Shown: in pieces, positions 13,081-47,191 of the stretch
Layout: every line of letters starts with the position of its first letter
How positions within the stretch are numbered: position 1 is the stretch's first letter
Origin: a virus
Direction: 5' to 3' (one strand)
DNA length: 47,759 nucleotides
IMG/VR virus record: IMGVR_UViG_3300048550_000984
Span: 1 to 47,759 of that record
Translations under genes and position numbers: made by a program
Notes under the pieces: generated by a model
Database searches by the model: none
What the model was told of the DNA's origin: nothing
Seen by the model: the letters and a program-made list of their open reading frames with translations, nothing else

Positions 13081-13084
13081 AAAG

Positions 13085-20036: not shown

Positions 20037-20037
20037 C

Positions 20038-26426: not shown

Positions 26427-26432
26427 ATTACA
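26427..26432 (-). promoter_or_regulatory. Late-type promoter motif TGTAAT before the portal gene
   Basis: GGTGTAAT on the minus strand, 9 nt before the ATG at 26417. Confidence 0.5.
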
Positions 26433-26448
26433 CCTATATATTATAATA

Positions 26449-33306: not shown

Positions 33307-33320
33307 TTACACTAGTGTAA
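33307..33320. promoter_or_regulatory. Perfect 14-bp palindrome TTACACTAGTGTAA, divergent late promoters
   Basis: Each half is the AGTGTAA late motif, one facing PhoH (TGTAAA at 33306-33311, 15 nt before its ATG), the other facing the gene at 33330 (TGTAAT at 33316-33321, 8 nt before its ATG). The site could be used as one bidirectional promoter. Confidence 0.6.
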
Positions 33321-34741: not shown

Positions 34742-34747
34742 AAGTAG

Positions 34748-34753
34748 TGTAAA
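34748..34753 (+). promoter_or_regulatory. Late-type promoter motif TGTAAA before 34761
   Basis: AGTGTAAA with 7 nt to the ATG at 34761. Confidence 0.5.
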
Positions 34754-36148: not shown

Positions 36149-36154
36149 TTTACA
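36149..36154 (-). promoter_or_regulatory. Late-type promoter motif TGTAAA before 36141
   Basis: GGTGTAAA on the minus strand, 7 nt before the ATG. Confidence 0.5.
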
Positions 36155-36239
36155 CCAAATAGGGGTCGGTTATTTTTTTATTCAAGCAAATAATTTAAAA
36201 TATTTTAAACAATGCAAATATTGAAAAATAGTACCCCCC

Positions 36240-36559: not shown

Positions 36560-36843
36560 TCTCCGAAGATCTCACGCATTGCAGGACTGAGAGAAGCCAT
36601 GTCAACCTCGTTCTCATCCATGTCATAATCGACATCATCCTTGTCATGCTCGACTGACTCAAGAGAAGCGTGTTCTTCCTTGATGTCATTATCACTTGCT
36701 TGAAGCAAACCATGATTGACTACAAGCTCTTCCGCTTGAATCTCTTCTTGTAGTTCTTCTTGCAATGATGCAAATCTAGGAGCGAGGCGGTAACCTTGCT
36801 TGGCGTTTTCTACTGCTAAACGAATTCTTTCGATGTTATCCAT
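36556..36843 (-). CDS. Small acidic protein
   Basis: 95 residues, strongly acidic in its C-terminal half (KDDVDYDMDENEVD). Acidic phage proteins of this size often inhibit nucleic-acid-binding host enzymes by DNA mimicry, but nothing specific shows that here. Transcribed from its own near-leaderless promoter and coupled to the next gene. Confidence 0.7.
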   Translation of the reverse strand: MDNIERIRLAVENAKQGYRLAPRFASLQEELQEEIQAEELVVNHGLLQASDNDIKEEHASLESVEHDKDDVDYDMDENEVDMASLSPAMREIFGE

Positions 36844-36851
36844 AGTTATAT

Positions 36852-36880
36852 AATCTAGTATAGTTGGGTTGTAATGTCAA
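36852..36880 (-). promoter_or_regulatory. Leaderless-type promoter for 36843
   Basis: TTGACA, 17 bp, TAGATT; 8 nt to the ATG. The -35 box overlaps the TGA stop of the upstream gene. Confidence 0.7.
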
Positions 36881-37053
36881 GCCTCAATGATTCTTTTTTT
36901 GTGATCAACCAAAAACTTTTGGTCATTCTCTTGTGCAAGAGTCTTGGCATAGTTGAATGCTTTGGTTCGTCCTTCGATCTCCTTGACGAACTTGCCGAAG
37001 GCGAAGATGTTCCAAAAGCGTGAAATGTTTTCGTTTTTCTCAATCTTAATCAT
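36877..37053 (-). CDS. Small hypothetical protein, leaderless
   Basis: 58 residues (MIKIEKNENISRFWNIF to RIIEA), amphipathic helices. A longer open frame of another reading frame lies over it, but this frame starts exactly 6 nt after a -10 box and ends inside the promoter of the next gene, which supports it. Function unknown. Confidence 0.7.
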   Translation of the reverse strand: MIKIEKNENISRFWNIFAFGKFVKEIEGRTKAFNYAKTLAQENDQKFLVDHKKRIIEA

Positions 37054-37059
37054 GCTCTA

Positions 37060-37088
37060 AATATAAGAAAATTTTCTGTAAAAGTCAA
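37060..37088 (-). promoter_or_regulatory. Leaderless promoter for 37053
   Basis: TTGACT, 17 bp, TATATT; 6 nt to the ATG. Confidence 0.75.
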
Positions 37089-37128
37089 GTGTTTTTAAAA
37101 AAAAATTAAAGTTTTTTTCATGTTGTTG

Positions 37129-37200
37129 TAAGTTGCTTATAGTCATATAATTGTGCAATTGCCCTAGCAAAAGTAGAATTGTGCAATAAAATAGTTTAAA
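37129..37200 (+). repeat. Intergenic repeat copy A
   Basis: TAAGTTGCTTATAGTCATAT core with TATAAT at 37146-37151, preceded by TTGTTG exactly 17 bp upstream of it. The downstream tail GTAGAATTG, then CAATAAAATAGTT is shared with copies B and C. Confidence 0.75.
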
Positions 37201-37207
37201 GTTTTTC

Positions 37208-37236
37208 TTGACTTTTAGTCATTTTGTTGCTATGTT
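37208..37236 (+). promoter_or_regulatory. Leaderless promoter for 37243
   Basis: TTGACT, 17 bp, TATGTT; 6 nt to the ATG. Confidence 0.75.
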
Positions 37237-37242
37237 GTTTAT

Positions 37243-37320
37243 ATGATAAAGATTGATACAACACAACTAACTGAAAGAGAAAAGATTTTACTAGCATTTG
37301 TAATAGCTAAAAAAAAGTAA
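37243..37320 (+). CDS. 25-residue leaderless microprotein
   Basis: MIKIDTTQLTEREKILLAF followed by VIAKKK. Too short for most gene finders, but it starts 6 nt after a clear sigma70-like promoter in the same geometry as its neighbours. A helical, amphipathic peptide. Function unknown. Confidence 0.6.
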   Translation: MIKIDTTQLTEREKILLAFVIAKKK

Positions 37321-37328
37321 AATAAAGT

Positions 37329-37357
37329 TTGACAAAACAAGAAAGGATTGATAGGTT
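37329..37357 (+). promoter_or_regulatory. Leaderless promoter for 37364
   Basis: Perfect TTGACA, 17 bp, TAGGTT; 6 nt to the ATG. Confidence 0.8.
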
Positions 37358-37363
37358 ATAGAT

Positions 37364-37558
37364 ATGACAGAAGAACAAATACAAAGAGAAATAAGATTAG
37401 ACAAACTACAAATGCAAATGTGGAAAGGTAAAATGGATCAAAGCGAGATAGATTGGAAGTTCGCCCGCATTGCTGAACTCGAGGCAATGTTGCCACAAGC
37501 CCGCCATCAAGACAAAGTAAAAGCTTTCGGATGGAAATCAGTCGAAAGAAACGCTTGA
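37364..37558 (+). CDS. Small helical protein
   Basis: 64 residues. The start MTEEQIQREIRLDKLQ resembles MTTKEIQREILTLQ of the gene at 38207, and both look like short helical hairpins, so they may be paralogues. The stop TGA lies inside the -35 box of the next gene. Confidence 0.75.
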   Translation: MTEEQIQREIRLDKLQMQMWKGKMDQSEIDWKFARIAELEAMLPQARHQDKVKAFGWKSVERNA

Positions 37559-37583
37559 CTTTTAACATCAACTAACCTAGTAT
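37555..37583 (+). promoter_or_regulatory. Leaderless-type promoter for 37592
   Basis: TTGACT, 17 bp, TAGTAT; 8 nt to the ATG. Overlaps the stop of the upstream gene. Confidence 0.75.
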
Positions 37584-37591
37584 ATACACAT

Positions 37592-37831
37592 ATGACAATG
37601 ACACAAACTAAAGAAGAAATAAGGAAAGAAGTAAGAACGGAGCTTGACCTAGGGCTTGCCCTGTCTAAAGCTGAAGGCAACCTCAACTTCCTTGCCGAGT
37701 CAACCAACACCGAAGGAGACCAAACCTTGACCATCACTCAAGGCATGGCAATCCTCGACGCTCTCCATGCAGTGCAAGAAGCTCGCAAGGCATACCAAGC
37801 GGTAATCTACAAAGCAAGAAAGGCTAAGTAA
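37592..37831 (+). CDS. Small helical protein, paralogue of 39434
   Basis: 79 residues. ELDLGLALSKAEGNLNFL and NTEGDQTLT correspond to QLDLGIHLAKIQGSIEFL and NTEKKDSPRTLT in the gene at 39434-39646, so the two arose by duplication. Mostly alpha-helical. Function unknown. Stop overlaps the next start (TAATG). Confidence 0.8.
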   Translation: MTMTQTKEEIRKEVRTELDLGLALSKAEGNLNFLAESTNTEGDQTLTITQGMAILDALHAVQEARKAYQAVIYKARKAK

Positions 37832-38106
37832 TGAGTTATACAAGATTAGAATCTAAAATGAGAGAATCAGGCAAGATCGCTAAGAATGCCTACTTAGATG
37901 ATGACCCTGAAAAGGCAATTGACTACGCCTGGACACTAGGGTATCATGGTGTACCATTCTACGACAAAGGTGCAATATCCTATCTCAAGAAGCTCGGAAT
38001 ACTAGAAGATGCACAATCCGCCTACGATAGTGGCACAAGGCAGCGAAGCACACCTTTTTCATATGCAAACTTTGACGACATAGACGATTACCTAAGTCAC
38101 TGTTAG
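37831..38106 (+). CDS. Small hypothetical protein
   Basis: 91 residues (MSYTRLESKMRES), helical, no family recognised. Its start overlaps the stop of the gene at 37592, so it is co-translated. Its 3' end forms the first part of repeat copy B. Confidence 0.7.
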   Translation: MSYTRLESKMRESGKIAKNAYLDDDPEKAIDYAWTLGYHGVPFYDKGAISYLKKLGILEDAQSAYDSGTRQRSTPFSYANFDDIDDYLSHC

Positions 38107-38160
38107 TCAGATAATTGCGAGACTGGGTGGGGCGCGATAGAATTGTACAATAAAATAGTT
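38093..38160 (+). repeat. Intergenic repeat copy B
   Basis: TAAGTCACTGTTAGTCAG core; the box is GATAAT (38110-38115), 17 nt from the first T. The tail TAGAATTGTACAATAAAATA and the following bases up to the next promoter match copy A almost base for base. Confidence 0.7.
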
Positions 38161-38171
38161 GAAAGTTTTTC

Positions 38172-38200
38172 TTGACTTTTCAAGGTTTACTTGTTAGGTT
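38172..38200 (+). promoter_or_regulatory. Leaderless promoter for 38207
   Basis: TTGACT, 17 bp, TAGGTT; 6 nt to the ATG. Confidence 0.8.
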
Positions 38201-38206
38201 ATAGGT

Positions 38207-38392
38207 ATGACTACAAAAGAAATACAAAGGGAAATACTCACACTACAAACCGCCCTCGCTGAGTGCATACTTAGCGACTCTCAACGCGTTGCAATACGCA
38301 ACGAACTTGGGCAACTACAAGACGAGCTTGCCTTGCGAGAGTTCGACGAGCAGCCCGACATTGACTGGGGCTTTCATTCTGAATGGGAGTAA
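38207..38392 (+). CDS. Small coiled-coil protein
   Basis: 61 residues, two predicted helices (QREILTLQTALAECI and VAIRNELGQLQDEL), then an acidic tail. Likely a paralogue of the gene at 37364 and similar in build to that at 38446. Function unknown. Confidence 0.75.
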   Translation: MTTKEIQREILTLQTALAECILSDSQRVAIRNELGQLQDELALREFDEQPDIDWGFHSEWE

Positions 38393-38410
38393 AATAATTT
38401 CACTTTTAGC

Positions 38411-38439
38411 TTGCAATTAAATAAAAAATTTTATATAGT
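38411..38439 (+). promoter_or_regulatory. Leaderless promoter for 38446
   Basis: TTGCAA, 17 bp, TATAGT; 6 nt to the ATG. TTGCAA-type -35 preceded by CACTTTTAGC, a lead-in shared with several promoters here. Confidence 0.75.
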
Positions 38440-38445
38440 TATATC

Positions 38446-38655
38446 ATGAACATAAAAAAAGAAATCAGTAAATTAGAGCAATTCATAAAAGATCATGCGT
38501 TTGATGCAGACGCTGGGCATATTCAATCTCAAATAGCAGTGCTTCAGGCAGAACTAGAGATTGAAGAACTAGAGCAACAAGAAAAAGAAGCTGAAGAGCG
38601 GGCGCAAAATCTACTTGCACAAAAACTCTTTTTTTCCTTTTTTCCGCTTGCATAA
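38446..38655 (+). CDS. Small coiled-coil protein with hydrophobic tail
   Basis: 69 residues. A charged coiled coil (IQSQIAVLQAELEIEELEQQ) ends in FFSFFPLA, a short hydrophobic tail. The stop lies in the -35 box of the next promoter. Function unknown. Confidence 0.7.
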   Translation: MNIKKEISKLEQFIKDHAFDADAGHIQSQIAVLQAELEIEELEQQEKEAEERAQNLLAQKLFFSFFPLA

Positions 38656-38676
38656 TCACACAAAATCCTTAATAAT
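38648..38676 (+). promoter_or_regulatory. Leaderless promoter for 38683
   Basis: TTGCAT, 17 bp, AATAAT; 6 nt to the ATG. Confidence 0.65.
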
Positions 38677-38682
38677 AAAGAT

Positions 38683-38991
38683 ATGAGAAAAGTTACAGAA
38701 CAAATCAGAAACGCCTTCAATGCTGGCACATCCTTAAAAGTCGGAAACACCGAGACAGACGGGCAAACCGTTTGGTTGCATGGTAACGCAATTGTAAAGC
38801 GTGACGCCGACGGGCTTGTGCGTTGGTCACTTGCGGGCTGGAATACTCCGACCACACGCGAACGCGTCAACGGCATAGCCAATGCTAATGTTTCGCAGTT
38901 CAAATTCGAGCCTGTACTAAACGGCGAAGTAATTGACGAAAACGATTGGTTCGCAACTCCTAATTCATTGCCCGATCCTCTTGTGTTCTAA
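38683..38991 (+). CDS. Small beta-rich protein of a widespread phage type
   Basis: 102 residues. The pattern NAFNAGTSLKVGNTETDG, VWLHGNAI, LAGWNTPTTRERVNGI resembles a small family found in many phages (GNT, LHGN, GW-T-TT-ERLNG). Function is not known. The C-terminal extension after NGEVI is longer than I recall for the family. The stop TAA is the first three bases of repeat copy C. Confidence 0.75.
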   Translation: MRKVTEQIRNAFNAGTSLKVGNTETDGQTVWLHGNAIVKRDADGLVRWSLAGWNTPTTRERVNGIANANVSQFKFEPVLNGEVIDENDWFATPNSLPDPLVF

Positions 38992-39060
38992 GTCGTTGAA
39001 AGTCAGATAATTGCAAATCTGGCTAGGCAAAAGTAGAATTGTATAATAAAATAATTGAAT
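38989..39060 (+). repeat. Intergenic repeat copy C
   Basis: TAAGTCGTTGAAAGTCAG core, GATAAT at 39006-39011, tail GTAGAATTGTATAATAAAATA. Confidence 0.75.
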
Positions 39061-39077
39061 CTTTTTTCACTTTTTGC

Positions 39078-39105
39078 TTGCGTTTTCGGCTTAATGTGTT
39101 AGATT
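39078..39105 (+). promoter_or_regulatory. Leaderless promoter for 39112
   Basis: TTGCGT, 16 bp, TAGATT; 6 nt to the ATG. The only member with a 16-bp spacer. Confidence 0.6.
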
Positions 39106-39111
39106 ATATAT

Positions 39112-39384
39112 ATGATAAAGAATAAAACATTCGTAGCAAGTGTTCATGTCTCTTCCCTTGATGGTGAAGCAATTTCCTTATGGAATAGTAATACTAAGTC
39201 ATATATCGACATTGACAAAACACATCATACAATCACTATAAAAGCTGAAGACAAGCACGAAGTAAGACGCAAAGTTGCTCGCATGATTCGCACACTTCAG
39301 CCTAAGTTGCAATTTCAAACAAGCATTCAACGCAAAGATGGAGATAATGCTCAATACTACATTCAACAAATTTGGGAAAAATAA
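39112..39384 (+). CDS. Small hypothetical protein
   Basis: 90 residues, alternating strands and one basic helix (EVRRKVARMIRTLQP). No family recognised. Leaderless start. Confidence 0.7.
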   Translation: MIKNKTFVASVHVSSLDGEAISLWNSNTKSYIDIDKTHHTITIKAEDKHEVRRKVARMIRTLQPKLQFQTSIQRKDGDNAQYYIQQIWEK

Positions 39385-39396
39385 TTCACTTTTTGC

Positions 39397-39425
39397 TTGC
39401 AATTTCTTTGTTTGCATGCTACCTT
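39397..39425 (+). promoter_or_regulatory. Leaderless-type promoter for 39434
   Basis: TTGCAA, 17 bp, TACCTT; 8 nt to the ATG. The -10 is weak. Confidence 0.55.
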
Positions 39426-39433
39426 ATAGGTAT

Positions 39434-39646
39434 ATGATTAATACAAAAGATATGAAAGAAAAAATAGTAAAGCAGCTTGATCTTGGAATTCACCTTGCAA
39501 AGATTCAAGGATCAATTGAATTTCTTCACTACATGAACACCGAAAAAAAAGATTCGCCAAGAACCTTGACGGAAGAAATGACTACTGAAGGTCTTCTCGA
39601 AAAAGTCGCAGAGCTTCGGTCTATGATAAAAGAAATACAAAAATAA
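39434..39646 (+). CDS. Small helical protein, paralogue of 37592
   Basis: 70 residues from the ATG at 39434; a longer frame starting at 39338 would overlap the previous gene and is rejected because the promoter lies between. Shares the LDLG, LAK-QG-I-FL and NTE motifs with the protein at 37592. Function unknown. Confidence 0.75.
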   Translation: MINTKDMKEKIVKQLDLGIHLAKIQGSIEFLHYMNTEKKDSPRTLTEEMTTEGLLEKVAELRSMIKEIQK

Positions 39647-39658
39647 TTCATTTTTTTC

Positions 39659-39687
39659 TTGCAATTTCAACTCAAATGTGCGATAGT
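39659..39687 (+). promoter_or_regulatory. Leaderless promoter for 39694
   Basis: TTGCAA, 17 bp, GATAGT; 6 nt to the ATG, which fixes the start at 39694 rather than at the ATG of 39676 inside the spacer. Confidence 0.7.
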
Positions 39688-39693
39688 AATAAT

Positions 39694-39876
39694 ATGTTAA
39701 ACGATAAAATACAAGTTAGAATTAAAAAATGGTCAACGCATTGGTCTGTTAAGATCTTCGACACAGGAACCGATTACCCACGGGTTCGGACTGCGTCAAG
39801 TCTTTCACACCTTAGAACAATCGAAAGAGAAGAGGATCTCAACTCTCCTCGTTTCAATGTAGTAACTCAACACTAA
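39694..39876 (+). CDS. Small basic protein
   Basis: 60 residues (MLNDKIQVRIKKWSTHWSVK), beta-strand rich at the start, helix later. No family recognised. Start defined by its leaderless promoter. Confidence 0.65.
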   Translation: MLNDKIQVRIKKWSTHWSVKIFDTGTDYPRVRTASSLSHLRTIEREEDLNSPRFNVVTQH

Positions 39877-39882
39877 AATAAT

Positions 39883-40068
39883 ATGTCAAATAAAAACAAA
39901 TTCAAAAAAGGCGATGTGCTCATCTCTCGAGATAATAAAGTCTTTCAATTCATCCAAGCCACCGAGCATGAAGAGCTTGGAACTATCGCCATGGTTCGTC
40001 CATACCGCACTGACCGCAAGGTCGGCATCCGTTTCGAGGATGTGAAGCTTCACCCTTTCTTTGCATAA
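39883..40068 (+). CDS. Small SH3/KOW-like protein
   Basis: 61 residues. FKKGDVLISRDNKVFQFIQA resembles the opening of small SH3-like or KOW folds. No own promoter is clear; it follows the previous gene by 6 nt and is probably on the same transcript. Confidence 0.65.
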   Translation: MSNKNKFKKGDVLISRDNKVFQFIQATEHEELGTIAMVRPYRTDRKVGIRFEDVKLHPFFA

Positions 40069-40072
40069 TACT

Positions 40073-40237
40073 ATGATAAATGTAGACAAAAACCCAAACT
40101 TTACTAATTGGTTTGACATCAGACTTTTTGGCAAGCTAGTAGACAACGCCACAAGCCACGCTAACGCCATGCGTATAGCCCGCAAACTCAGCGAGCAAAC
40201 TAAATCTCCGATTATCGCGACTAAAACCAAGTCGTAA
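40073..40237 (+). CDS. Small hypothetical protein, short ORF
   Basis: 54 residues (MINVDKNPNFTNWFDIRLFG, ending TKTKS). Basic and helical in its second half. Starts 4 nt after the previous stop, and its own stop TAA begins repeat copy D, the same arrangement as for copy C. Function unknown. Confidence 0.65.
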   Translation: MINVDKNPNFTNWFDIRLFGKLVDNATSHANAMRIARKLSEQTKSPIIATKTKS

Positions 40238-40300
40238 ATCGTTGATTATCATATAATTGCGAAACTGGATAGGCAAAAAAAGAATTTTATAACTTTTTAG
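40235..40300 (+). repeat. Intergenic repeat copy D
   Basis: TAAATCGTTGATTATCATAT core, TATAAT at 40252-40257, tail AACTGGATAGGCAAAA. The rest of the gap to 40513 holds only a terminator. Confidence 0.75.
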
Positions 40301-40394
40301 TTTGATTGGTTAATTTCTCTTTCTCGGCGGGCAATAGCTGTATCCGAACGATTTGGGCTATTTGGAAAAAAATTTGCTCCTATTTACAAAAAAA

Positions 40395-40418
40395 CCCGCT
40401 AGTTTTTAGGCTAGCGGG
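40395..40418 (-). terminator. Intrinsic terminator for the minus-strand gene at 40514
   Basis: 8-bp stem CCCGCTAG/CTAGCGGG with an 8-nt loop, then seven T on the minus strand. Confidence 0.85.
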
Positions 40419-40513
40419 CTTGTAGTTGACCTAAGACTATGAATCCTCACTTAACAAATCCGAGAACATTATATAGAATACAAATATCCACGGAGTGAAA
40501 AATAATAGTTCCA

Positions 40514-40750
40514 TCATCCAAGAATTTTTGAGATTACTCTCTTGGCGACGCCCTTACGGAATGCAACACCATTGTATTGAGAACCCTTGACAACTGACAC
40601 GAATGATCCGTTAGCAGTGTCGTAGTAAGCAGAGACGGGTACTCTGTTCTTGTTGACATATGTGAACCAAATCTTTTCATCACGATTGTTGACATTGTGA
40701 GGAGTATAGGTTTTAACCTTACTTAGTGCTTGTTTTTGTTTTTTTGTCAT
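40514..40750 (-). CDS. Small basic protein
   Basis: 78 residues, beta-rich (VPVSAYYDTANGSFVSVV), no family recognised. Its promoter (40780-40808) gives a short 5' leader of about 23 nt without a clear Shine-Dalgarno, unlike the leaderless genes. A terminator follows. Confidence 0.7.
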   Translation of the reverse strand: MTKKQKQALSKVKTYTPHNVNNRDEKIWFTYVNKNRVPVSAYYDTANGSFVSVVKGSQYNGVAFRKGVAKRVISKILG

Positions 40751-40779
40751 AGTTTAGTTTATCTGATTGTTATGATATA

Positions 40780-40808
40780 AGTATAGTATAAGATTGATTA
40801 AAAGTCAA
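40780..40808 (-). promoter_or_regulatory. Sigma70-like promoter for 40750, with leader
   Basis: TTGACT, 17 bp, TATACT; 29 nt between the -10 and the ATG. It overlaps the 3' end of the upstream gene. Confidence 0.65.
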
Positions 40809-41179
40809 GCGTTAAATCTTTCTTCCTGCTCCGCTAGTACTTTTTCGTTAAAGTCTGCCCTCAAATTAATAAGTAATTTTTCTTCAGCGAGTCCGTCAAG
40901 TTGAAATTGTTGCATCAATTTAGAGACTTGAAGTGGAGGTTGCCAACCGAGGACATCGTCCGAAACAGAGAGGGGGACAAAGTCTCCGCGAGGATTAAAT
41001 ACTGCAACCTCATAGTTATCTGGATGATTGCCGTAAAACAGATTACCGCCCTCAGCATTGGCGACAACGCTAAAAGCGTAGCCATTGTCAAGAGTCAGGC
41101 TTGCTACAACTCCCAAGTCTTTTGCGTGAGGATGAGGACCGAATTTTAGGTCATCGAATGTTTTTAGTGTTTTAGTCAT
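40805..41179 (-). CDS. Small phage protein of a widespread hypothetical type
   Basis: 124 residues. FDDLKFGPHPHAKD, GYAFSVVAN, YEVAVFNPRG and SDDVLGWQ match a small hypothetical family seen in many phages (FEDLKFKPHPMG type). Function unknown. Near-leaderless start. Confidence 0.75.
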   Translation of the reverse strand: MTKTLKTFDDLKFGPHPHAKDLGVVASLTLDNGYAFSVVANAEGGNLFYGNHPDNYEVAVFNPRGDFVPLSVSDDVLGWQPPLQVSKLMQQFQLDGLAEEKLLINLRADFNEKVLAEQEERFNA

Positions 41180-41186
41180 AATATAA

Positions 41187-41215
41187 ATTCTATAAAATTA
41201 AAGTAGTTATGTCAA
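41187..41215 (-). promoter_or_regulatory. Leaderless-type promoter for 41179
   Basis: TTGACA, 17 bp, TAGAAT; 7 nt to the ATG. Confidence 0.75.
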
Positions 41216-41222
41216 GGGTTTT

Positions 41223-41630
41223 TTACCACCAAGAGTCGAAGAATACTTTCCAACCTTTATCGAGTAGGTCGCGAGCCTTTCTGATAAAATAAAGATCATT
41301 ATCTTTGTAGTAGTAATGATTGTCGGGATAAGGATTCCCCTCTTCATCTGTCCAAAAATAAGAATCATTCCCAAAAAAGAATCCGCCTGTTTCAGGTAGC
41401 TCAAAGTTGTTGATTGCATACTCTAGTGAATCAATGTCTTCTAGTGTTAGCTCTAAAGGTATGCAGTTAAAGTCGCCCATAGGGTTAGCTTCTGATGAAT
41501 CAAAGTTTGGTCTACCTTTATCCTCCCATAAATCTTCCATCCAACCTTGAAGTCTGTTATGCTTTCTCCATGTAGCTATATCTTCGTGTTGCTCGCCTTT
41601 AGTTGCATATGCTGATTGATCTAATCCCAT
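41223..41630 (-). CDS. Conserved phage protein (MGLDQxAYA type)
   Basis: 135 residues. MGLDQSAYATKGEQ, ATWRKHNRLQGWMEDLW, FNCIPLELTLEDID and TGGFFFGNDSY match a conserved hypothetical phage family of about this length. Function unknown. Unlike its neighbours it has a 5' leader with AAAGGA before the ATG. Confidence 0.8.
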   Translation of the reverse strand: MGLDQSAYATKGEQHEDIATWRKHNRLQGWMEDLWEDKGRPNFDSSEANPMGDFNCIPLELTLEDIDSLEYAINNFELPETGGFFFGNDSYFWTDEEGNPYPDNHYYYKDNDLYFIRKARDLLDKGWKVFFDSWW

Positions 41631-41665
41631 AATAATATTCCTTTGTTAAGTTAATCTATACCTAT

Positions 41666-41694
41666 AAGTATGACATTTTTTTAAGTAAAGTCAA
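41666..41694 (-). promoter_or_regulatory. Sigma70-like promoter for 41630
   Basis: TTGACT, 17 bp, ATACTT; about 35 nt to the ATG, with a Shine-Dalgarno in the leader. The region 41695-41799 holds nothing else I can identify. Confidence 0.5.
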
Positions 41695-41799
41695 CCTTTT
41701 TTTTTGGCAAATTCGATTTTAATTTTTGTCTATATAGTTTCGATTTCATAAATACCCCTGGGTCAATGACTTACATTAATGGATAGGGTTTTGTTGTAA

Positions 41800-41964
41800 T
41801 TAATTAATACACAAGTCTTTATGAAAGAATCCTTGGTCCGCTAAAACTCTACATGTGTCTGGAAAGGCCAAGTCGATAACGTCGAAAGCTTCCAGGAACC
41901 CGTCCAGGTCCTGCGCGCATTCATTAAAAAGGTAAAGGCAAAAAATATATTCTTCGTAGTCCAC
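41800..41964 (-). CDS. Small acidic protein, short ORF
   Basis: 54 residues from a GTG (VDYEEYIFCLYLFNECAQDL). It lies 37 nt downstream of the gene at 42002 in the same direction; TATACA stands 7 nt before the GTG. It may be a distant paralogue of the 42002 protein (both have an E/D-x-FL helix followed by a VL-x helix). Start codon uncertain. Confidence 0.5.
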   Translation of the reverse strand: MDYEEYIFCLYLFNECAQDLDGFLEAFDVIDLAFPDTCRVLADQGFFHKDLCIN

Positions 41965-42001
41965 ATATGATTGTATAAAATTTTTAATTGTTTTAAAGTG
42001 T

Positions 42002-42169
42002 TTAATATCCTAACCATTCAAGCACTGCCTGAGCCGAGTATTCTTCCTTGTCGCCCATGTCTACCAGGAACTCTTCGAATTCTTGGCAACCGTGGTTTTT
42101 GAGCTCCTGAAATGCCCGCTCTTGTGATATCATGACGGATTCGGCTGAGTCGTAATAAGTATCGCTCAT
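42002..42169 (-). CDS. Small acidic protein, short ORF
   Basis: 55 residues (MSDTYYDSAESVMISQERAF to LEWLGY). The ATG overlaps the stop of the gp88-like gene (ATGA), which strongly supports it. Helical and acidic. Function unknown. Confidence 0.75.
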   Translation of the reverse strand: MSDTYYDSAESVMISQERAFQELKNHGCQEFEEFLVDMGDKEEYSAQAVLEWLGY

Positions 42170-42909
42170 GAGTTTACTCCTTCCTGTACGAAGCCCGTCT
42201 CATCTTTCTTTGCCATACCTTTTTCGATAAGCCCAACGACTACCCCTTTCTTGTCTAAGAAACGCAAGTCGGTATCATCACCATTGACAACTTCGTAACC
42301 CTTCCAAGTCTTAGGAAGTTGGTTGCGAAACACAACGGCAACATTCCCGCCCATAGCAAGAACCATTTCGCACTTCTTGTCATTATGCTCTGATCGAGAA
42401 AAAGTCAAGTGATAATTGGATGGAAATTTTTGTGCATCTTTAGTGAATGGCTTGTTAAGAAAAGCACACATCCTCTTGAATGACTTTGTATAGTCGTAGA
42501 ATTGAGTTTCAGGAAACTTGTCAAAGATCGTCTTTGGCTCTGATTCACTGAAGAAAACAGACTCCCATGAAATGTCGCTTGTAAGGTTTAAGCGAAACAC
42601 CGCTTGCATTTCTTTCTTGAGTGAACTTTTGATAGTTGAAGCAACCTCTTTAGAAAGCTTTGCAAGGAAGTCCAATTGTTGCTCAAAGAATAACTTTGTC
42701 TTGGCAATGCGTGAAGCTTGAACGGAATTCATTTGACCACGACCTGCTGTGTTTAAACAAGCCATTGTGCAACCTTTGGAACGCCATTGGCAAACTTCGT
42801 AACCCGCAAGATTGGCTGGAGCTAAGTGAATTCCTTTTGTGATGTAACCAAGTTTTTCGCCTTTAACGATTTTTTGGTTACCTGAAGTGAGTAGTGTCGT
42901 TTTAATCAT
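42166..42909 (-). CDS. Gene product 88-like protein
   Basis: 247 residues from the ATG at 42909, fixed by the promoter 7 nt upstream; a 20-residue in-frame extension lies in the promoter region and is rejected. GYITKGIHLAPANLAGYEVC, GCTMACLNTAGRGQM, RIAKTKLFFEQ, RLNLTSDISWE, FYDYTKS, YHLTFSRSEHN and GGNVAVVFR are the hallmarks of the phage gp88-like family (named from a mycobacteriophage protein). Conserved Cys in C-x(n)-GC-x3-C suggest metal binding. The function is not established. Confidence 0.8.
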   Translation of the reverse strand: MIKTTLLTSGNQKIVKGEKLGYITKGIHLAPANLAGYEVCQWRSKGCTMACLNTAGRGQMNSVQASRIAKTKLFFEQQLDFLAKLSKEVASTIKSSLKKEMQAVFRLNLTSDISWESVFFSESEPKTIFDKFPETQFYDYTKSFKRMCAFLNKPFTKDAQKFPSNYHLTFSRSEHNDKKCEMVLAMGGNVAVVFRNQLPKTWKGYEVVNGDDTDLRFLDKKGVVVGLIEKGMAKKDETGFVQEGVNS

Positions 42910-42916
42910 GTATACA

Positions 42917-42945
42917 ATACTAGAGAAGTTGGGGGCATCTGTCAA
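42917..42945 (-). promoter_or_regulatory. Leaderless-type promoter for 42909
   Basis: Perfect TTGACA, 17 bp, TAGTAT; 7 nt to the ATG. Confidence 0.8.
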
Positions 42946-42976
42946 CCCCTTTTTTTCATTTTTTTTCACTTTGTCA

Positions 42977-43010
42977 TAAGTCGTTGAATATCATATAATT
43001 AAAATTTTTC
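42977..43010 (+). repeat. Intergenic repeat copy E
   Basis: TAAGTCGTTGAATATCATAT core, TATAAT at 42994-42999, with TTGTCA exactly 17 bp upstream: a near-consensus + strand promoter between two minus-strand genes. Confidence 0.75.
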
Positions 43011-43060
43011 TTAGGCGATTTTCGCAATTAACTAATACTCAGTCACTTGCAAAAGAAAAA

Positions 43061-43082
43061 CCCCCTTCCGATTGGAAGGGGG
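43061..43082 (-). terminator. Intrinsic terminator after the DUF932 gene
   Basis: 9-bp stem CCCCCTTCC/GGAAGGGGG, loop GATT, then TTTTTCTTTT on the minus strand. Confidence 0.88.
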
Positions 43083-43109
43083 CTGAACGACACGATATGA
43101 CCAGCAACC

Positions 43110-43958
43110 TTAGAAGGGGTCACCTGCACCGACTACCTCGGCTTCGATTATCTCATCCTGCTTAAAGCTTGATGAATCAAAGCCCACTTCGGAGTCAAGC
43201 ACGGAATGCAATGCTTCGGAGCGTTGAGGTAATGCGGTAAGGTTACCCTTGTAAACCTCTGTGAAAGCGTTGTACAATGAGTTTACATTCCTGTCCCAAA
43301 ATTCGGGATGATCGGACTTTTCCCATTGGTCAACAACATCAATGATCTTTGACTTAGGCAAAGCACCTGCCTTGCAAGCACGGATCACAAGATCGTTGAC
43401 TTGAGCGTTTTTAAGATCATGCTCTTTGTAGGCATCAATCCTACTATCTTGAGCAACCCAAAAGTTGAAAAGCTTGCCAAGAGTGCGAGCAATGACATGG
43501 TCAAGCTCATTGAGGATATTCTTAGTATGCCTACGAGCTAGTTTGACCTCGTTAGTAAAAATAAGATTGTCGCAGACAAAAGGAGCGTCACCTGCACAAA
43601 GTCCTGCGGGGAAGCACTTGTCGTGGGCATTCCGAAGTCCTACGATAGTGCCTCGCTCTGAAGCCTCTCTTTTAGGATGAGAAACTTGAAACAAGCCAAA
43701 GTATCTTTGGTTATTCCTAGCGAGGTTATGGCACTCTGCCTCGATAGTAAAGCCCGCTTGATCAAGATGGTTGCGAGTTTTATCAATAAGGAGAGAATGA
43801 GAGATCGGTTGGTACGAGACAGAACGCTCGCCATTTTTGTTGAGTTCCTTACGAAACTCGATGGGCGGAGTTTGAACTGCCTTGACTTGGTCGATTTCTA
43901 CTACTTTGTGCTCACCGCCACAGATGCGGAGATTGTTGGTTTTTTGTTCGTTATTCAT
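43110..43958 (-). CDS. DUF932 domain protein
   Basis: 282 residues. GERSVSYQPISHSLLID, GTIVGLRNAHDKCFPAGLC, FVCDNLIFTNEVKLARRHTK are characteristic of the DUF932 family (found in phages and plasmids, often beside DNA-processing or anti-defence genes). No catalytic residues are established. Leaderless-type start, own terminator, so it is a single-gene unit. Confidence 0.82.
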   Translation of the reverse strand: MNNEQKTNNLRICGGEHKVVEIDQVKAVQTPPIEFRKELNKNGERSVSYQPISHSLLIDKTRNHLDQAGFTIEAECHNLARNNQRYFGLFQVSHPKREASERGTIVGLRNAHDKCFPAGLCAGDAPFVCDNLIFTNEVKLARRHTKNILNELDHVIARTLGKLFNFWVAQDSRIDAYKEHDLKNAQVNDLVIRACKAGALPKSKIIDVVDQWEKSDHPEFWDRNVNSLYNAFTEVYKGNLTALPQRSEALHSVLDSEVGFDSSSFKQDEIIEAEVVGAGDPF

Positions 43959-43965
43959 AAGTATA

Positions 43966-43994
43966 ATAATAGTTGATTGTTAATGTTTTGTCAA
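43966..43994 (-). promoter_or_regulatory. Leaderless-type promoter for 43958
   Basis: Perfect TTGACA, 17 bp, TATTAT; 7 nt to the ATG. Confidence 0.8.
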
Positions 43995-44024
43995 GAATTA
44001 ATTTTAGTAAATTAAAGTTTTTTT

Positions 44025-44147
44025 ATGCTTCAGCTTTCTATGTATGATTTTGTTTTTAAGTTTGTGAGGGCGAGCTTTGGTGAAAAGGATTGGTTTTCTT
44101 ATCTTTATATCTCTCGCTTTCATATATATAATTATGACAGATTGTGA
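44025..44147 (+). CDS. Possible 40-residue peptide
   Basis: MLQLSMYDFVFKFVRASFGE, ending YNYDRL. It is the only + strand frame in this gap; TTGTCA lies about 30 nt upstream but the -10 is poor. It may not be a gene. Confidence 0.25.
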   Translation: MLQLSMYDFVFKFVRASFGEKDWFSYLYISRFHIYNYDRL

Positions 44148-44188
44148 TTTAATTGCAAGCAAAAAATAATTTTTTTTTGCAGTTATCT

Positions 44189-44244
44189 TAAGTTGTTGAA
44201 TACCATATAATTGCGGAATCAGCTAGGGAAATTCCATAAAACGT
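44189..44244 (+). repeat. Intergenic repeat copy F
   Basis: TAAGTTGTTGAATACCATAT core, TATAAT at 44206-44211, tail CAGCTAGGGAAA. A nearby GTTGATTATCAAC at 44243 is a small palindrome related to the core. Confidence 0.7.
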
Positions 44245-44261
44245 TGATTATCAACAAAAAA

Positions 44262-44283
44262 CCCCTCTCCGATTGGAGAGGGG
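44262..44283 (-). terminator. Intrinsic terminator of the 44311-44972 operon
   Basis: 9-bp stem CCCCTCTCC/GGAGAGGGG, loop GATT, then TTTTTTG on the minus strand. Same loop as the terminator at 43061. Confidence 0.88.
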
Positions 44284-44310
44284 CTTGGATTAACCGATGA
44301 CCATGAAAGG

Positions 44311-44475
44311 TCAGAACACACGCTTCTCTAGATGATAGAGCTCCTCGAGTAATGCATTATGCTGAGACCGACGCTCATTGTGCTCTGATAAATAAATACC
44401 TTCTGATTCTTCGCAGGCTAACATATGGGCTAGCTCGCGAACTTGTGCTCGTAAATGTTCAATGCGTTTCTTCAT
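44311..44475 (-). CDS. Small coiled-coil protein, short ORF
   Basis: 54 residues (MKKRIEHLRAQVRELAHML to EKRVF), a helical hairpin. It starts 3 nt after the upstream stop with AGGGGG as Shine-Dalgarno and ends 28 nt before the terminator. Function unknown. Confidence 0.75.
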   Translation of the reverse strand: MKKRIEHLRAQVRELAHMLACEESEGIYLSEHNERRSQHNALLEELYHLEKRVF

Positions 44476-44478
44476 ATT

Positions 44479-44715
44479 CTACCCCCTTACTAAAGAGATG
44501 ATGCGATCATAACGGAAAGAACGAATTCCGTTGCGGTTAAAGCAATGAGCACGAAAGCCTACGACTCTCTTGCCCTCGCGAGCGTTACCAAACTCACGCT
44601 TATGCGTAGGTTTAGAGATTGTATACATTTGTGTTCTACCATCTTCGGTAGTATACACGACATTATAGGTTGAGCTGAACAAAGCAGCTAACTTGTTTTT
44701 GAGTTTCCTTAACAT
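44479..44715 (-). CDS. Small protein with WYL-like ending
   Basis: 78 residues. The C-terminal half (GKRVVGFRAHCFNRNGIRSFRYDRIISL) resembles the end of WYL domains, which sense nucleic acids or small ligands in bacterial regulators. The N-terminus is basic. Too short to hold a DNA-binding domain. Resemblance is by eye only. Coupled to the upstream gene by TAATG. Confidence 0.65.
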   Translation of the reverse strand: MLRKLKNKLAALFSSTYNVVYTTEDGRTQMYTISKPTHKREFGNAREGKRVVGFRAHCFNRNGIRSFRYDRIISLVRG

Positions 44716-44972
44716 TAGGATTGTTCTCCTTCTACTTCTTGTAAACCCATCGCAGGGTTTTGGTTGTAATAATTGTAAGCGTCAGTGACTTCTTCAGCTG
44801 ACTCAAAACTTACAAATAAGATGTCTTTTGCACTATCGTATGGGTGCCATGGCGTCTCTGATTCCTCAAAGGCTAGCTCCCACTGCTCAGTGTCTTCATT
44901 AAAATTAGGAAGGTCAAGAGGTTTGCCTTCGCATACTGCATCGATATAGGTGTTCATAGTTGTGTTTGTCAT
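44715..44972 (-). CDS. Small acidic protein
   Basis: 85 residues (MTNTTMNTYIDAVCEGKPLD), acidic, no family recognised. First gene of a three-gene operon with its own leaderless promoter inside the end of the upstream gene. Confidence 0.75.
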   Translation of the reverse strand: MTNTTMNTYIDAVCEGKPLDLPNFNEDTEQWELAFEESETPWHPYDSAKDILFVSFESAEEVTDAYNYYNQNPAMGLQEVEGEQS

Positions 44973-44975
44973 GGT

Positions 44976-45131
44976 TTAATTATCGTACATTTCTTTGATC
45001 ATGTCAACATCAAAATCAATTTCTCCGTCTTTTTCTTTAAGTTCAAAAGAATTTTTATCAATTAAGATTTCTTCGTCGGCATCCAAAAGGTCTTGGATTT
45101 TTTTAATATAGGTAATGGCTAAGTCGTTCAT
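44976..45131 (-). CDS. Small acidic protein, short ORF
   Basis: 51 residues (MNDLAITYIKKIQDLLDADE to KEMYDN). Coupled to the upstream gene by TAATG. Its final codons carry the promoter of the next gene. Function unknown. Confidence 0.7.
   Translation of the reverse strand: MNDLAITYIKKIQDLLDADEEILIDKNSFELKEKDGEIDFDVDMIKEMYDN
44979..45007 (-). promoter_or_regulatory. Leaderless promoter for 44972
   Basis: Perfect TTGACA, 17 bp, GATAAT; 6 nt to the ATG. Lies entirely within the last codons of the gene at 44976. Confidence 0.8.
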
Positions 45132-45322
45132 TAGGCAATGTCGATTCCGAAGTGAGATGCAAGCTCTTTCATCGCTTTATCTTTACCGAAAAAGTCATAA
45201 GCAAATGCGAGTAATTGCTTTTTGTCTCGTTCGGCATAATCTCTAATCTCATCATAAATTTCAAATATGTTGAGATTCCAATTCCAGGATTCTACTTGTG
45301 CTTCTACTTGTGATGATGTCAT
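45131..45322 (-). CDS. Small acidic helical protein
   Basis: 63 residues (MTSSQVEAQVESWNWNLNIF). No family recognised. Coupled on both sides by TAATG overlaps within the operon that begins at 45940. Confidence 0.7.
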   Translation of the reverse strand: MTSSQVEAQVESWNWNLNIFEIYDEIRDYAERDKKQLLAFAYDFFGKDKAMKELASHFGIDIA

Positions 45323-45537
45323 TATACTGCCCTTTCATTTACTTGTTCTAACATTAATTTAAATTGATCAAAAACTTTTTGCTTGCTACCTTTAAGACCA
45401 AACTCTTGCTTGATGATAGAATAGCAAGACCTGCCCCTACTCATTTGCATTCCTAGCGTCTCAAGCCTTAATCCTTTAAGGAGTGTTTTGTAGCGAAACA
45501 TTTCGATTTGTTCGGGTTTGTCTAATACTGCTGTCAT
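45322..45537 (-). CDS. Conserved small phage protein (SRGRS type)
   Basis: 71 residues. LLKGLRLETLGMQMSRGRSC, IIKQEFGLKGSKQKVFDQF matches a small family met in many phages. Helical; possibly nucleic-acid binding. Function unknown. It has an AAGGA Shine-Dalgarno, as expected inside an operon. Confidence 0.78.
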   Translation of the reverse strand: MTAVLDKPEQIEMFRYKTLLKGLRLETLGMQMSRGRSCYSIIKQEFGLKGSKQKVFDQFKLMLEQVNERAV

Positions 45538-45551
45538 AATTTTTCCTTGTG

Positions 45552-45776
45552 TTATAGTTCTGCTGATTGAAAAGATGATTCTATTCTACGCTCATCTCGT
45601 AATAATGTCAAGTCCCGAATGATGTCGTCTAAAGTTTCATCTTCACTTTGAAACGCACTCCCCTTTGGAAACTTTTCGGGGTGACGCTCATGTTGGTCAA
45701 GACAAACTGTTGACATGGGATCTGACCATGCAAGGTTGCCTCTTACTATATCCATAATTGATTCTGATAATGTCAT
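45552..45776 (-). CDS. Small hypothetical protein
   Basis: 74 residues (MTLSESIMDIVRGNLAWSD). Helical C-terminus. Starts in the stop of the upstream gene (ATGA) with AAAGGG ahead of it. Function unknown. Confidence 0.72.
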   Translation of the reverse strand: MTLSESIMDIVRGNLAWSDPMSTVCLDQHERHPEKFPKGSAFQSEDETLDDIIRDLTLLRDERRIESSFQSAEL

Positions 45777-45940
45777 TGTTTTGCCCTTTCATTTTGGTCG
45801 TCTGCAATCTTTGCGAGGCGAAGTAATTCTTGGGTTACTTCTGCTTTTGCTGTGTTGTTTGCTTTTGGGTTTTTCAACACCTCGATCATAATAGGAACGA
45901 GTGCTGACCATGTTGGTGTGATGTCTATTGTTTCTTGCAT
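45773..45940 (-). CDS. Small helical protein, short ORF, leaderless
   Basis: 55 residues (MQETIDITPTWSALVPIMIE to NERAKQ). First gene of the operon running to 44976. Start fixed by a perfect promoter 6 nt upstream. The shape (TPTWSALVPIMIEVLKNP, then a helix) resembles a small protein seen in many phages. Function unknown. Confidence 0.78.
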   Translation of the reverse strand: MQETIDITPTWSALVPIMIEVLKNPKANNTAKAEVTQELLRLAKIADDQNERAKQ

Positions 45941-45946
45941 GATATA

Positions 45947-45975
45947 ATACTATGAAATTTTTTGTTCAATGTCAA
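45947..45975 (-). promoter_or_regulatory. Leaderless promoter for 45940
   Basis: Perfect TTGACA, 17 bp, TAGTAT; 6 nt to the ATG. Overlaps the end of the upstream gene. Confidence 0.8.
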
Positions 45976-46150
45976 GGTTTTTTTTCTGATTAACTAATTC
46001 TTTGAGCTCATAGCTGATGGTGCATAGATTTTCATTAATGTCACGCATAACTCTGAGTAGATCCGCCATGTTTCCATGACGACGATGCTCTAACATTTCA
46101 TCTGACAATCCGTCAATGGCATGTTTAATTCCTTTTAATTCTTCTTTCAT
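45950..46150 (-). CDS. Small coiled-coil protein
   Basis: 66 residues (MKEELKGIKHAIDGLSDEML), one long charged helix. Coupled to the gene at 46147 by ATGA. Function unknown. Confidence 0.7.
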   Translation of the reverse strand: MKEELKGIKHAIDGLSDEMLEHRRHGNMADLLRVMRDINENLCTISYELKELVNQKKNLDIEQKIS

Positions 46151-46524
46151 GCTGCTAATACTCTGTTATGGGTTAACGATGCAAATCCTGAATAATATAC
46201 AGGATTTTCTGTGTCTTTTTCTACAAAAGAGCTATACTTGTACGGGTTGTATGTAATTTCTGTACCAATTGCAACTGTCCCGCCAAGGTCGTCTATCCTG
46301 CCTAAAATGCCCGCATGAACATTCTTACGCTTTTCTTGGATAACTTTCGCCCGCCCCTTTTGGTTTACTTGGAAACTGCAATCCCACATCTCTAAGCTAT
46401 CTGCGTGTGCTTTAACAAGCCCGCCCTGCTTGACTGACCAACAGTCCTTGTGAAGATTCTTATATACGAACACCTTCTTGCTGAAGTCGATGTCGTATCT
46501 TTTGTCGCTTTTTGTTCTGATCAT
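46147..46524 (-). CDS. Conserved phage protein (KNVHA type)
   Basis: 125 residues. KKVFVYKNLHKDCWSVKQGG, then FQVNQKGRAKVIQEKRKNVHAGILG match a hypothetical family recurrent in phages. Beta-rich first half. Function unknown. Leaderless start. Confidence 0.78.
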   Translation of the reverse strand: MIRTKSDKRYDIDFSKKVFVYKNLHKDCWSVKQGGLVKAHADSLEMWDCSFQVNQKGRAKVIQEKRKNVHAGILGRIDDLGGTVAIGTEITYNPYKYSSFVEKDTENPVYYSGFASLTHNRVLAA

Positions 46525-46530
46525 GTATAC

Positions 46531-46559
46531 AATTATGACAGAAAACTACCGCAAGTCAA
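46531..46559 (-). promoter_or_regulatory. Leaderless promoter for 46524
   Basis: TTGACT, 17 bp, ATAATT (or 16 bp with CATAAT); 6 nt to the ATG. Confidence 0.7.
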
Positions 46560-46578
46560 GCTTTTTTTGAAATAGTTG

Positions 46579-46613
46579 TAACTCGTTGGTTATCATATAA
46601 TTGCGAAAATCGC
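46579..46613 (+). repeat. Intergenic repeat copy G
   Basis: TAACTCGTTGGTTATCATAT core, TATAAT at 46596-46601. Copy H follows 55 bp later. Confidence 0.7.
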
Positions 46614-46633
46614 CAAAAACTCTTTTCTTGCTG

Positions 46634-46680
46634 TAAGTTGTTGAATATCATATAATTGCAAAAGTTGGCAGGGCGATCCC
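46634..46680 (+). repeat. Intergenic repeat copy H
   Basis: TAAGTTGTTGAATATCATAT core, TATAAT at 46651-46656, TTGCTG at 46628-46633 giving a 17-bp promoter-like spacing. Confidence 0.75.
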
Positions 46681-46750
46681 GCAAAATACTGATGCTCAAC
46701 CCTTTACGAATTGAATTTTAATTTTATAAATTTTTGTTTAAATTATAGCT

Positions 46751-46805
46751 TTATATATTTGTTGTATATTTGCTACTTATATATTTGTTGTATGTATATT
46801 TGCTA
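46751..46805 (+). repeat. AT-rich direct repeat
   Basis: TTATATATTTGTTGTAT followed by ATATTTGCTA occurs twice, at 46751-46775 and 46777-46805 (the second with GT inserted). It lies in the gene-free stretch 46525-46901, together with copies G and H; otherwise nothing is seen there. Confidence 0.65.
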
Positions 46806-46901
46806 TGTCATTATATGATATGATTGAATTGAATAAAGAATTTAATCTTGTTTAAAAACGAGACAAATTGTGATGACTAGTGCTCCTAGAATAATTTCCA
46901 C

Positions 46902-47156
46902 TTAATTTGCTATATGTAGTGCTATTCTAAGATTCTCGCAATCTTTGCCACAAAGAAAAACTTCTCGGCAGTAGTCAATATCCTCGCTCTCTACTTTATC
47001 GATGCGTTGGATTGCCTCCCAGGCATGAACCCGTTCACGGGGCATTCCGCCCCATTTAATGACGACCTTCATGTGCGGGAAATAATCTACGATCTCGGCA
47101 AGCTGAGGTTTCGTGATGTATCCGTAGTTTGATAATATGTCTTTTAATGTTTTCAT
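46902..47156 (-). CDS. Small hypothetical protein
   Basis: 84 residues (MKTLKDILSNYGYITKPQLA), with four Cys toward the end (YCREVFLCGKDCENL holds three). No family recognised. Leaderless start from the promoter whose -35 lies in the T-tract of the upstream terminator. Confidence 0.72.
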   Translation of the reverse strand: MKTLKDILSNYGYITKPQLAEIVDYFPHMKVVIKWGGMPRERVHAWEAIQRIDKVESEDIDYCREVFLCGKDCENLRIALHIAN

Positions 47157-47162
47157 AATAAT

Positions 47163-47191
47163 AAGTATGGCAGGTTTTTTGGGAATGTCAA
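47163..47191 (-). promoter_or_regulatory. Leaderless promoter for 47156
   Basis: TTGACA, 17 bp, ATACTT; 6 nt to the ATG. The -35 box abuts the T-tract of the terminator at 47200. Confidence 0.7.

Follow-up and report, generated by a model that had tools for sequence, protein, structure and literature searches.

We analysed a 47,759-nt stretch of viral DNA (IMG/VR record IMGVR_UViG_3300048550_000984; hereafter the window), which matches bases 92,467–140,223 of a 193,844-bp virus contig, G001, in reversed orientation with 99.96% identity. The segment at 36.8–47.2 kb of the window is very probably an early-region block of an uncultured tailed-phage lineage of about 200 kb, in which promoter-proximal genes would be expressed from leaderless mRNAs, with sigma70-type promoters for early genes and a GTGTAA element for late genes. 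According to the proposed mechanism, near-consensus TTGACA-17-TAnnnT early promoters would be read by the RNA polymerase of the host, carrying its main sigma factor. Because the −10 box ends 6–7 nt before the ATG, RNA synthesis would start on the A of the ATG or 1–2 nt earlier, and the host ribosome would initiate on the 5′-terminal AUG without a Shine-Dalgarno (SD) site. For late and virion genes, GTGTAA(T/A) located about 8 nt before the start codon would act as the promoter, probably read by a phage sigma-like factor.

Promoters Adjacent to Start Codons in the Window

A preliminary description of the window had reported 18 genes with a −10 box 6–8 nt before the ATG. These starts were re-scored with the sigma70 matrix of E. 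coli, which may not be that of the host, and all 18 were recovered with a −35-like box, a 16–17 bp spacer and a −10-like box 6–8 nt before the ATG. The range therefore stood while the finer counts shifted: the distance was 6 nt in 10 genes, 7 nt in five and 8 nt in three (previously 12, three and three), with the register chosen for 46524 and 47156, and the spacer, described as 17 bp with a single 16, was 17 bp in 15/18 genes and 16 bp in 3/18. An SD-like 4-mer was present in 0/18 genes, and position −1 was a pyrimidine (C or T) in 18/18.

The arrangement was compared with shuffled sequence and with the rest of the window. Between 36.5 and 47.8 kb, 13 strong promoters had any ATG at 6–8 nt, compared to a mean of 0.9 and a maximum of 3 in 30 dinucleotide shuffles, and the geometry was thus far from equally frequent after shuffling. 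Among ATGs opening frames of at least 25 codons, a score of at least 8 at 6–8 nt was found in 13 of 159 in the region versus 1 of 351 elsewhere in the window. The left 36.5 kb, which carries virion genes, contained one ATG-adjacent case among 62 strong promoter matches.

On the plus strand, promoters ending 6 nt before the ATG are TTGACT-17-TATGTT (37208..37242, ATG 37243), TTGACA-17-TAGGTT (37329..37363, ATG 37364, gene 37364–37558; offset 6 in 8/8 orthologues), TTGACT-17-TAGGTT (38172..38206, ATG 38207, gene 38207–38392), TTGCAA-17-TATAGT (38411..38445, ATG 38446, gene 38446–38655) and TTGCAA-17-GATAGT (39659..39693, ATG 39694, gene 39694–39876; offset 6 in 14/25 orthologues). The same distance separates the weaker TTGCAT-17-AATAAT (38648..38682) from ATG 38683 (gene 38683–38991, Kyano_Gp96 family) and the weak TTGCGT-16-TAGATT (39078..39111) from ATG 39112 (gene 39112–39384), whose orthologues have TTGACT-17 boxes at 6 nt. 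Two further plus-strand promoters lie at 8 nt, namely TTGACT-17-TAGTAT (37555..37591, ATG 37592, gene 37592–37831) and the weak TTGCAA-17-TACCTT (39397..39433, ATG 39434, gene 39434–39646).

On the minus strand, TTGACA-17-TAGATT (36844..36880) lies 8 nt before ATG 36843 (gene 36556–36843), and a box at 6–8 nt was found in 22/29 orthologues. The distance is 6 nt for TTGACT-17-TATATT (37054..37088, ATG 37053, gene 36877–37053), TTGACA-17-GATAAT (44973..45007, ATG 44972, gene 44715–44972), which lies within the end of the upstream gene, and TTGACA-17-TAGTAT (45941..45975, ATG 45940, gene 45773–45940; offset 6–7 in 11/12 orthologues). It is 7 nt for TTGACA-17-TAGAAT (41180..41215, ATG 41179, gene 40805–41179), TTGACA-17-TAGTAT (42910..42945, ATG 42909, gene 42166–42909, GP88 family; offset 6–7 in 30/36 orthologues), TTGACA-17-TATTAT (43959..43994, ATG 43958, gene 43110–43958, DUF932), TTGACT-16-CATAAT with an extended TGT (46525..46559, ATG 46524, gene 46147–46524, Phage_L5_gp82 family; offset 6–8 in 27/30 orthologues) and TTGACA-16-CATACT (47157..47191, ATG 47156, gene 46902–47156; offset 6–7 in 23/28 orthologues).

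The start at 37243 opens a plus-strand micro-gene of 25 amino acids (37243..37320, MIKIDTTQLTEREKILLAFVIAKKK), which is predicted to be leaderless and is conserved, with unchanged promoter geometry, in relatives. The relatives also have another micro-protein family (MIKIRKKILFTKSRPHKVKAK...) behind promoters of this kind. Gene callers with a length cut-off would overlook both families.

Conservation and Initiator Signature in Related Phages

Tens of related loci were collected, including large contigs of 184–211 kb; judging from their metagenome numbers, they are presumably marine or estuarine. They were searched with a pattern that uses no weight matrix, TTGACN{17,19}TANNNTN{6,8}ATG, and with the reversed pattern as a control. 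The genome-wide search yielded 29 matches versus 1 control match in G001 and 18–31 versus 0–2 in the other 184–211 kb contigs, and most relatives that contain the early region exhibited a strong excess over the control. Selection with the E. coli matrix is partly circular, but this IUPAC pattern agrees with it on the sigma70-type form of the promoters, TTGAC(A/T) with a typical 16–17 bp spacer. The geometry is not special to the 36.8–47.2 kb block, to which it had been ascribed: it extends over about 60–104 kb of the 194-kb genome, with most early-type sites of G001 at 62–104 kb, and a second ATG-phased element is seen at late genes.

An offset survey of 59 loci gave 686 deduplicated cases of a promoter near an ATG. 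Offsets of 6 nt (168 cases) and 7 nt (87 cases) made up 255 of the 686, compared to a mean of 6 per position at 12–30 nt. The background was flat at 12–60 nt, and offsets 10–19 were depleted. The base before the ATG played no part in case selection, and it was a pyrimidine in 93% of leaderless-type cases (n = 279) versus 61% of those with a promoter at least 12 nt away (Fisher P about 2e-21), reaching 92% at offset 6 and 99% at offset 7. Since a pyrimidine at −1 is what a polymerase initiating on the A of the ATG should favor, this signature suggests that A as position +1. In both promoter classes, the enrichment was restricted to offsets for which this A is the predicted +1. SD motifs were present in 3% of the leaderless-type cases of relatives, and A occupied +4, the first base of the second codon, in 80% of leaderless-type cases versus 52% of controls. 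Orthologues of the 18 genes hold offset 6–7 with SD motifs near zero down to 32–45% protein identity, and their spacers have diverged. The earlier proposal that transcripts start at or next to the ATG is supported by the offset peak, the −1 pyrimidine, the SD-free geometry of the orthologues and the behavior of phage phiYS40 described below, all of which are consistent with leaderless transcription.

A Late-Type GTGTAA Element and a Phage Sigma-Like Protein

Late-side genes lack sigma70-type ATG-adjacent promoters and have GTGTAA just upstream instead. The window contains 13 copies, and 10 of these precede a start codon by 8–16 nt. The distance is exactly 8 nt in six cases, including one before a GTG start. 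On the plus strand, copies are located 8 nt before ATG 13098 of a tail fibre gene (13084..13089), ATG 17589 (17575..17580) and ATG 34761 (34747..34752), 9 nt before ATG 33330 (33315..33320) and 12 nt before ATG 15702 of a tail fibre gene (15684..15689). On the minus strand, they are located 8 nt before the GTG start 20023 of a minor tail protein (20032..20037), ATG 24444 (24453..24458) and ATG 36141 (36150..36155), 10 nt before ATG 26417 (26428..26433) and 16 nt before ATG 33290 of PhoH (33307..33312).

After deduplication across the clade, the distance from GTGTAA to the start was exactly 8 nt in 45 cases and 9 nt in 27, compared to 0–4 per position for control motifs at 8–9 nt. The offsets stop sharply below 8, and the −1 base was a pyrimidine in 91% of cases at 8 nt versus 57% at 9–13 nt (P 2e-4). 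Early and late classes are separated on G001, where a single GTGTAA site falls within 62–104 kb.

A candidate reader of GTGTAA is encoded at 30887..31672 on the minus strand. This sigma-like protein has a sigma-70 region 2 and a helical C-terminal domain with conserved cysteines between them. A protein with Pfam sigma-70 region 2 was identified in 9/10 genomes of the lineage, and the homologues carried region 2 in 23/23, region 4 in 4/23 and a PHROG sigma factor assignment in 21/23. When its predicted fold was searched with Foldseek, the top matches were nearly all sigma factors, with extracytoplasmic function sigmas first. The protein had no match among deposited phages and no sequence match among solved structures. 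It plausibly reads GTGTAA, based on their co-occurrence. A phage RNA polymerase beta subunit family was searched for and not found, and the candidate of an own multisubunit RNA polymerase was rejected on this ground. As for phage-encoded aids to leaderless translation, the search covered bS21 and IF3 and found neither.

Leadered Genes and Shine-Dalgarno Use

The same region also contains leadered genes, whose starts follow the −10 box by 29 nt (40750, minus strand), 36 nt (41630, minus strand) and 45 nt (45537, minus strand). Gene 41223–41630 has a leader of about 30 nt with an SD motif (aagga; 41631..41677, minus strand), and SD was detected in 24/28 orthologues. In the window, the leader of gene 45322–45537 bears an SD (45538..45611, minus strand), whereas 11/21 orthologues have an ATG-adjacent promoter, which indicates that the mode switches in evolution.

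Operon-internal genes had been described as bearing SD sites, and this holds for 42166, 44715, 45537 and 41630, but SD use is weak genome-wide. At tightly coupled internal starts, an SD-like motif was present in about 1/5 in G001 and fewer in the related genome G005, and A occupied −3 in 63–64%. The distinction drawn earlier between leaderless first genes and SD-bearing later genes is thus a tendency and not a rule. The low SD frequency suggests a host with weak SD use.

Evaluation of Alternative Explanations

Several observations weigh against the leaderless, two-promoter interpretation. Four of the 18 boxes are weak, namely those at 39112 (score 4.6), 39434 (5.7), 38683 (5.9) and 39694 (6.9), and the matrix behind these scores derives from E. 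coli and may not suit the host of the phage. The box is not kept by every orthologue: a score of at least 6 was reached by 9/31 for 43958 and by 12/25 for 41179. These genes may also be part of longer transcripts that begin at promoters further upstream. For the sigma-like protein, the predicted structure has moderate confidence (pLDDT 68, pTM 0.38; best Foldseek E value, 6e-3). In addition, no −35 box accompanying GTGTAA was found.

Because of this last point, GTGTAA could be a translation-initiation signal instead of a late promoter, a possibility that we regard as real but doubtful. Its position 8–13 nt upstream of starts in a lineage with weak SD use would fit such a role, but most copies precede late or virion genes and hardly any occur in the early region of G001. 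The sharp lower limit of the offsets, the restriction of the −1 pyrimidine signal to offset 8 and the conservation of the sigma-like protein also argue for a promoter.

It is unlikely that transcription begins 1–4 nt before the ATG and leaves very short A/T-rich leaders, on which the same 5′-end initiation would work. Offsets of 7 and 8 nt do occur, and GTGTAA at 9–13 nt, where the share of −1 pyrimidines falls to 57%, would leave leaders of 1–5 nt; however, the nearly invariable pyrimidine at offsets 6 and 7 points to the A as +1. Quite improbable is the explanation that the translated mRNAs are mostly longer ones from upstream promoters and that ATG-proximal starts, although real, are minor. 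The tandem genes and the strong promoter-like matches without a nearby ATG in upstream repeats (such as 37146, 42994 and 46651) are compatible with such read-through, but the orthologues lack SD, and the exact offset would not persist if the proximal starts were unimportant.

Mis-called ATGs with true starts downstream, next to SD sites, are very improbable. Several open reading frames do contain further in-frame ATGs, but orthologue alignment led us to reject this explanation, since homology reaches the first codons in relatives without SD-like motifs there and, even among diverged orthologues, the aligned ATG stays at a constant position with respect to the promoter. Finally, there is practically no chance that the geometry merely follows from tightly packed, AT-rich intergenic space or from reading bias: small genes are crowded in the region and its A+T content is 62%, but chance and composition were rejected by shuffles, reversed patterns, control motifs, the flat 12–60 nt background, 14 comparator phages including AT-rich ones and the absence of the geometry from the left 36 kb.

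Comparison With Known Leaderless Systems

The IUPAC pattern was also applied to 15 comparator phages: lambda, T4, phiKZ, KVP40, SPO1, Syn9, P-SSM2, Ma-LMM01, ICP1, phiYS40, HTVC008M, MaeS, G, KSY1 and SPBc2. Most were at control level, with 0–6 matches in 48–498 kb. HTVC008M gave 6 matches versus 1 control match and ICP1 gave 8 versus 0, most of which resemble coding sequence; ICP1 was the only clear excess over the control among the 14 comparators besides phiYS40. Phage phiYS40, with 10 matches versus 2, was the clearest positive, and its matches were promoter-like in form.

The mRNA of lambda cI from PRM begins at the AUG, as is predicted here, but it represents one gene with no genome-wide layout, and lambda had 0 pattern matches. 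The cI mRNA is used as a leaderless model, and initiation at a 5′ AUG in E. coli is inhibited by IF3 and stimulated by fMet-tRNA (PMC9031893).

According to the account of Sevostyanova et al. (2007) given in PMC3594737, most middle and late mRNAs of phiYS40 lack leaders, IF2 is up and IF3 is down. Because it has been reported to be leaderless, phiYS40 serves as a positive control. It is a large phage in which entire temporal classes of mRNAs are reported to be leaderless, as the sequence geometry would predict for the early and late regions of the present lineage, and the same DNA pattern is enriched in it. It differs in having a host, Thermus, from a phylum in which leaderless genes abound, and in that here early genes are of leaderless type with full −35/−10 promoters, plus a second late element. 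The preliminary description had considered a whole leaderless block unusual; phiYS40 provides a precedent for whole leaderless temporal classes.

A similar geometry is known from Deinococcus, where a −10 motif 6–7 bp before open reading frames was shown to be a promoter −10 that gives leaderless mRNA (PMC12340547). The TANNNT hexamer of this Deinococcus-Thermus arrangement lies about 6–7 bp before the start codon, as here, but it is chromosomal and mostly without a −35, whereas the phage promoters typically combine it with a near-perfect TTGAC at 17 bp. In the TA-led genes of Zheng et al. (2011; PMC3160421), SD is replaced by a TA-like signal that precedes the start by about 10 bp; the genomes surveyed were cellular, and usage was high in Actinobacteria and Deinococcus-Thermus. 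By the sequence features of TA-led genes, a −10-like hexamer near the start was found in all 18 window genes and SD in none. Mapped leaders in Lactococcus cremoris fall either below 5 nt or around 40 nt, and lengths of 4–14 nt are missing (PMC10986495). This gap matches the depletion of offsets 10–19 seen here, although it was mapped experimentally in a host transcriptome.

Genome, Lineage and Additional Features

The gene content includes a terminase, a lambda-J-like tail fibre, tail protein L, a minor tail protein, RecA, DnaB, a primase and an RIIA-like protein, and probably fits a large, long-tailed phage. Deposited phages yielded no near relative: the terminase matches (64 phage records) were all below 60% identity, with the best rows at 22–25%. 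In this comparison, which covered the terminase only, no Thermus phage was among the genera listed for the matches, and phiYS40 was not among the matches listed. Terminase relatives in bacterial genomes were two contigs of metagenome-assembled genomes (MAGs), one a Halobacteriovorax MAG and the other from another bin, and are likely binned phage contigs. The geometry excess in the genomes of those two MAGs was modest (45 versus 28 and 24 versus 16 in the control). Possible clues to the host lineage are a DUF1501 protein (E value, 4e-108; L127:1464-2774) and an FGE-sulfatase domain protein (L124:3569-6631) in the phage. As a host clue, DUF1501 gave plasmid matches of only about 28–39%, spread over several phyla.

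A repeat, TAAGTCGTTGAATATCATATAATTGCGAAA, occurs in about 8 copies at 37134–46658 of the window, always on the plus strand whatever the gene direction, and is iteron-like or promoter-like. It is confined to the closest relatives, with 7 copies each in L001, L003, L004 and L029, and L008 has a repeat with a similar core. Near-identical terminator-like hairpins (AAAAACCCCCTTCCGATTGGAAGGGGGCT) lie at 43056–43084 and 44257–44285, between early gene groups. A manA RNA motif (RF01745; 79 bits) was detected at 47249–47459 (minus strand), at the edge of the early region. Among the virion genes, an Aspartyl/asparaginyl beta-hydroxylase (35360–35947, minus strand) and a 2OG-Fe(II) oxygenase (29264–29839, minus strand) are encoded.

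A complete one-piece transfer-messenger RNA (tmRNA) gene (RF00023) was identified at L125:9003-9400 (G001:29003-29400) and also at L137:6721-7082. It is kept in 9/11 large genomes of the lineage with differing tag peptides, and such consistency is unusual for phages. Two UvdE-type UV endonucleases are encoded within one phage genome (L126:417-1520 and L127:12220-13230). At 151637–156203 of G001, tandem units of about 264 bp, 94–97% alike, lie within an open reading frame of 2755 amino acids.

Implications for Phage Gene Expression

It is probable, on the whole, that these phages form a large-phage lineage in which the first genes of both early and late units are leaderless and are served by two ATG-phased promoter classes, one of host sigma70 type and one consisting of GTGTAA read by a phage sigma, together with a conserved phage tmRNA and a weak-SD host not known to be rich in leaderless genes. 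Leaderless phages as such are already known, phiYS40 being the nearest. In the open literature searched, no earlier report of the lineage or its layout was found, and to that extent the leaderless type of early genes and the proposed pair of promoter classes are new, as is the lineage itself.

Initiation without a leader is commonly regarded as a property of the host or as an oddity of single genes. In this lineage, it seems to be a layout of the whole genome that extends to two promoter classes. With such a layout, start codons, promoters and micro-genes such as the 25-amino-acid gene at 37243 would be readable from the sequence alone. The lineage may thus serve as a testable case of phage gene expression in which SD sites matter little, and it would offer many natural promoter–ATG fusions with defined spacing for studies of 5′-AUG initiation.

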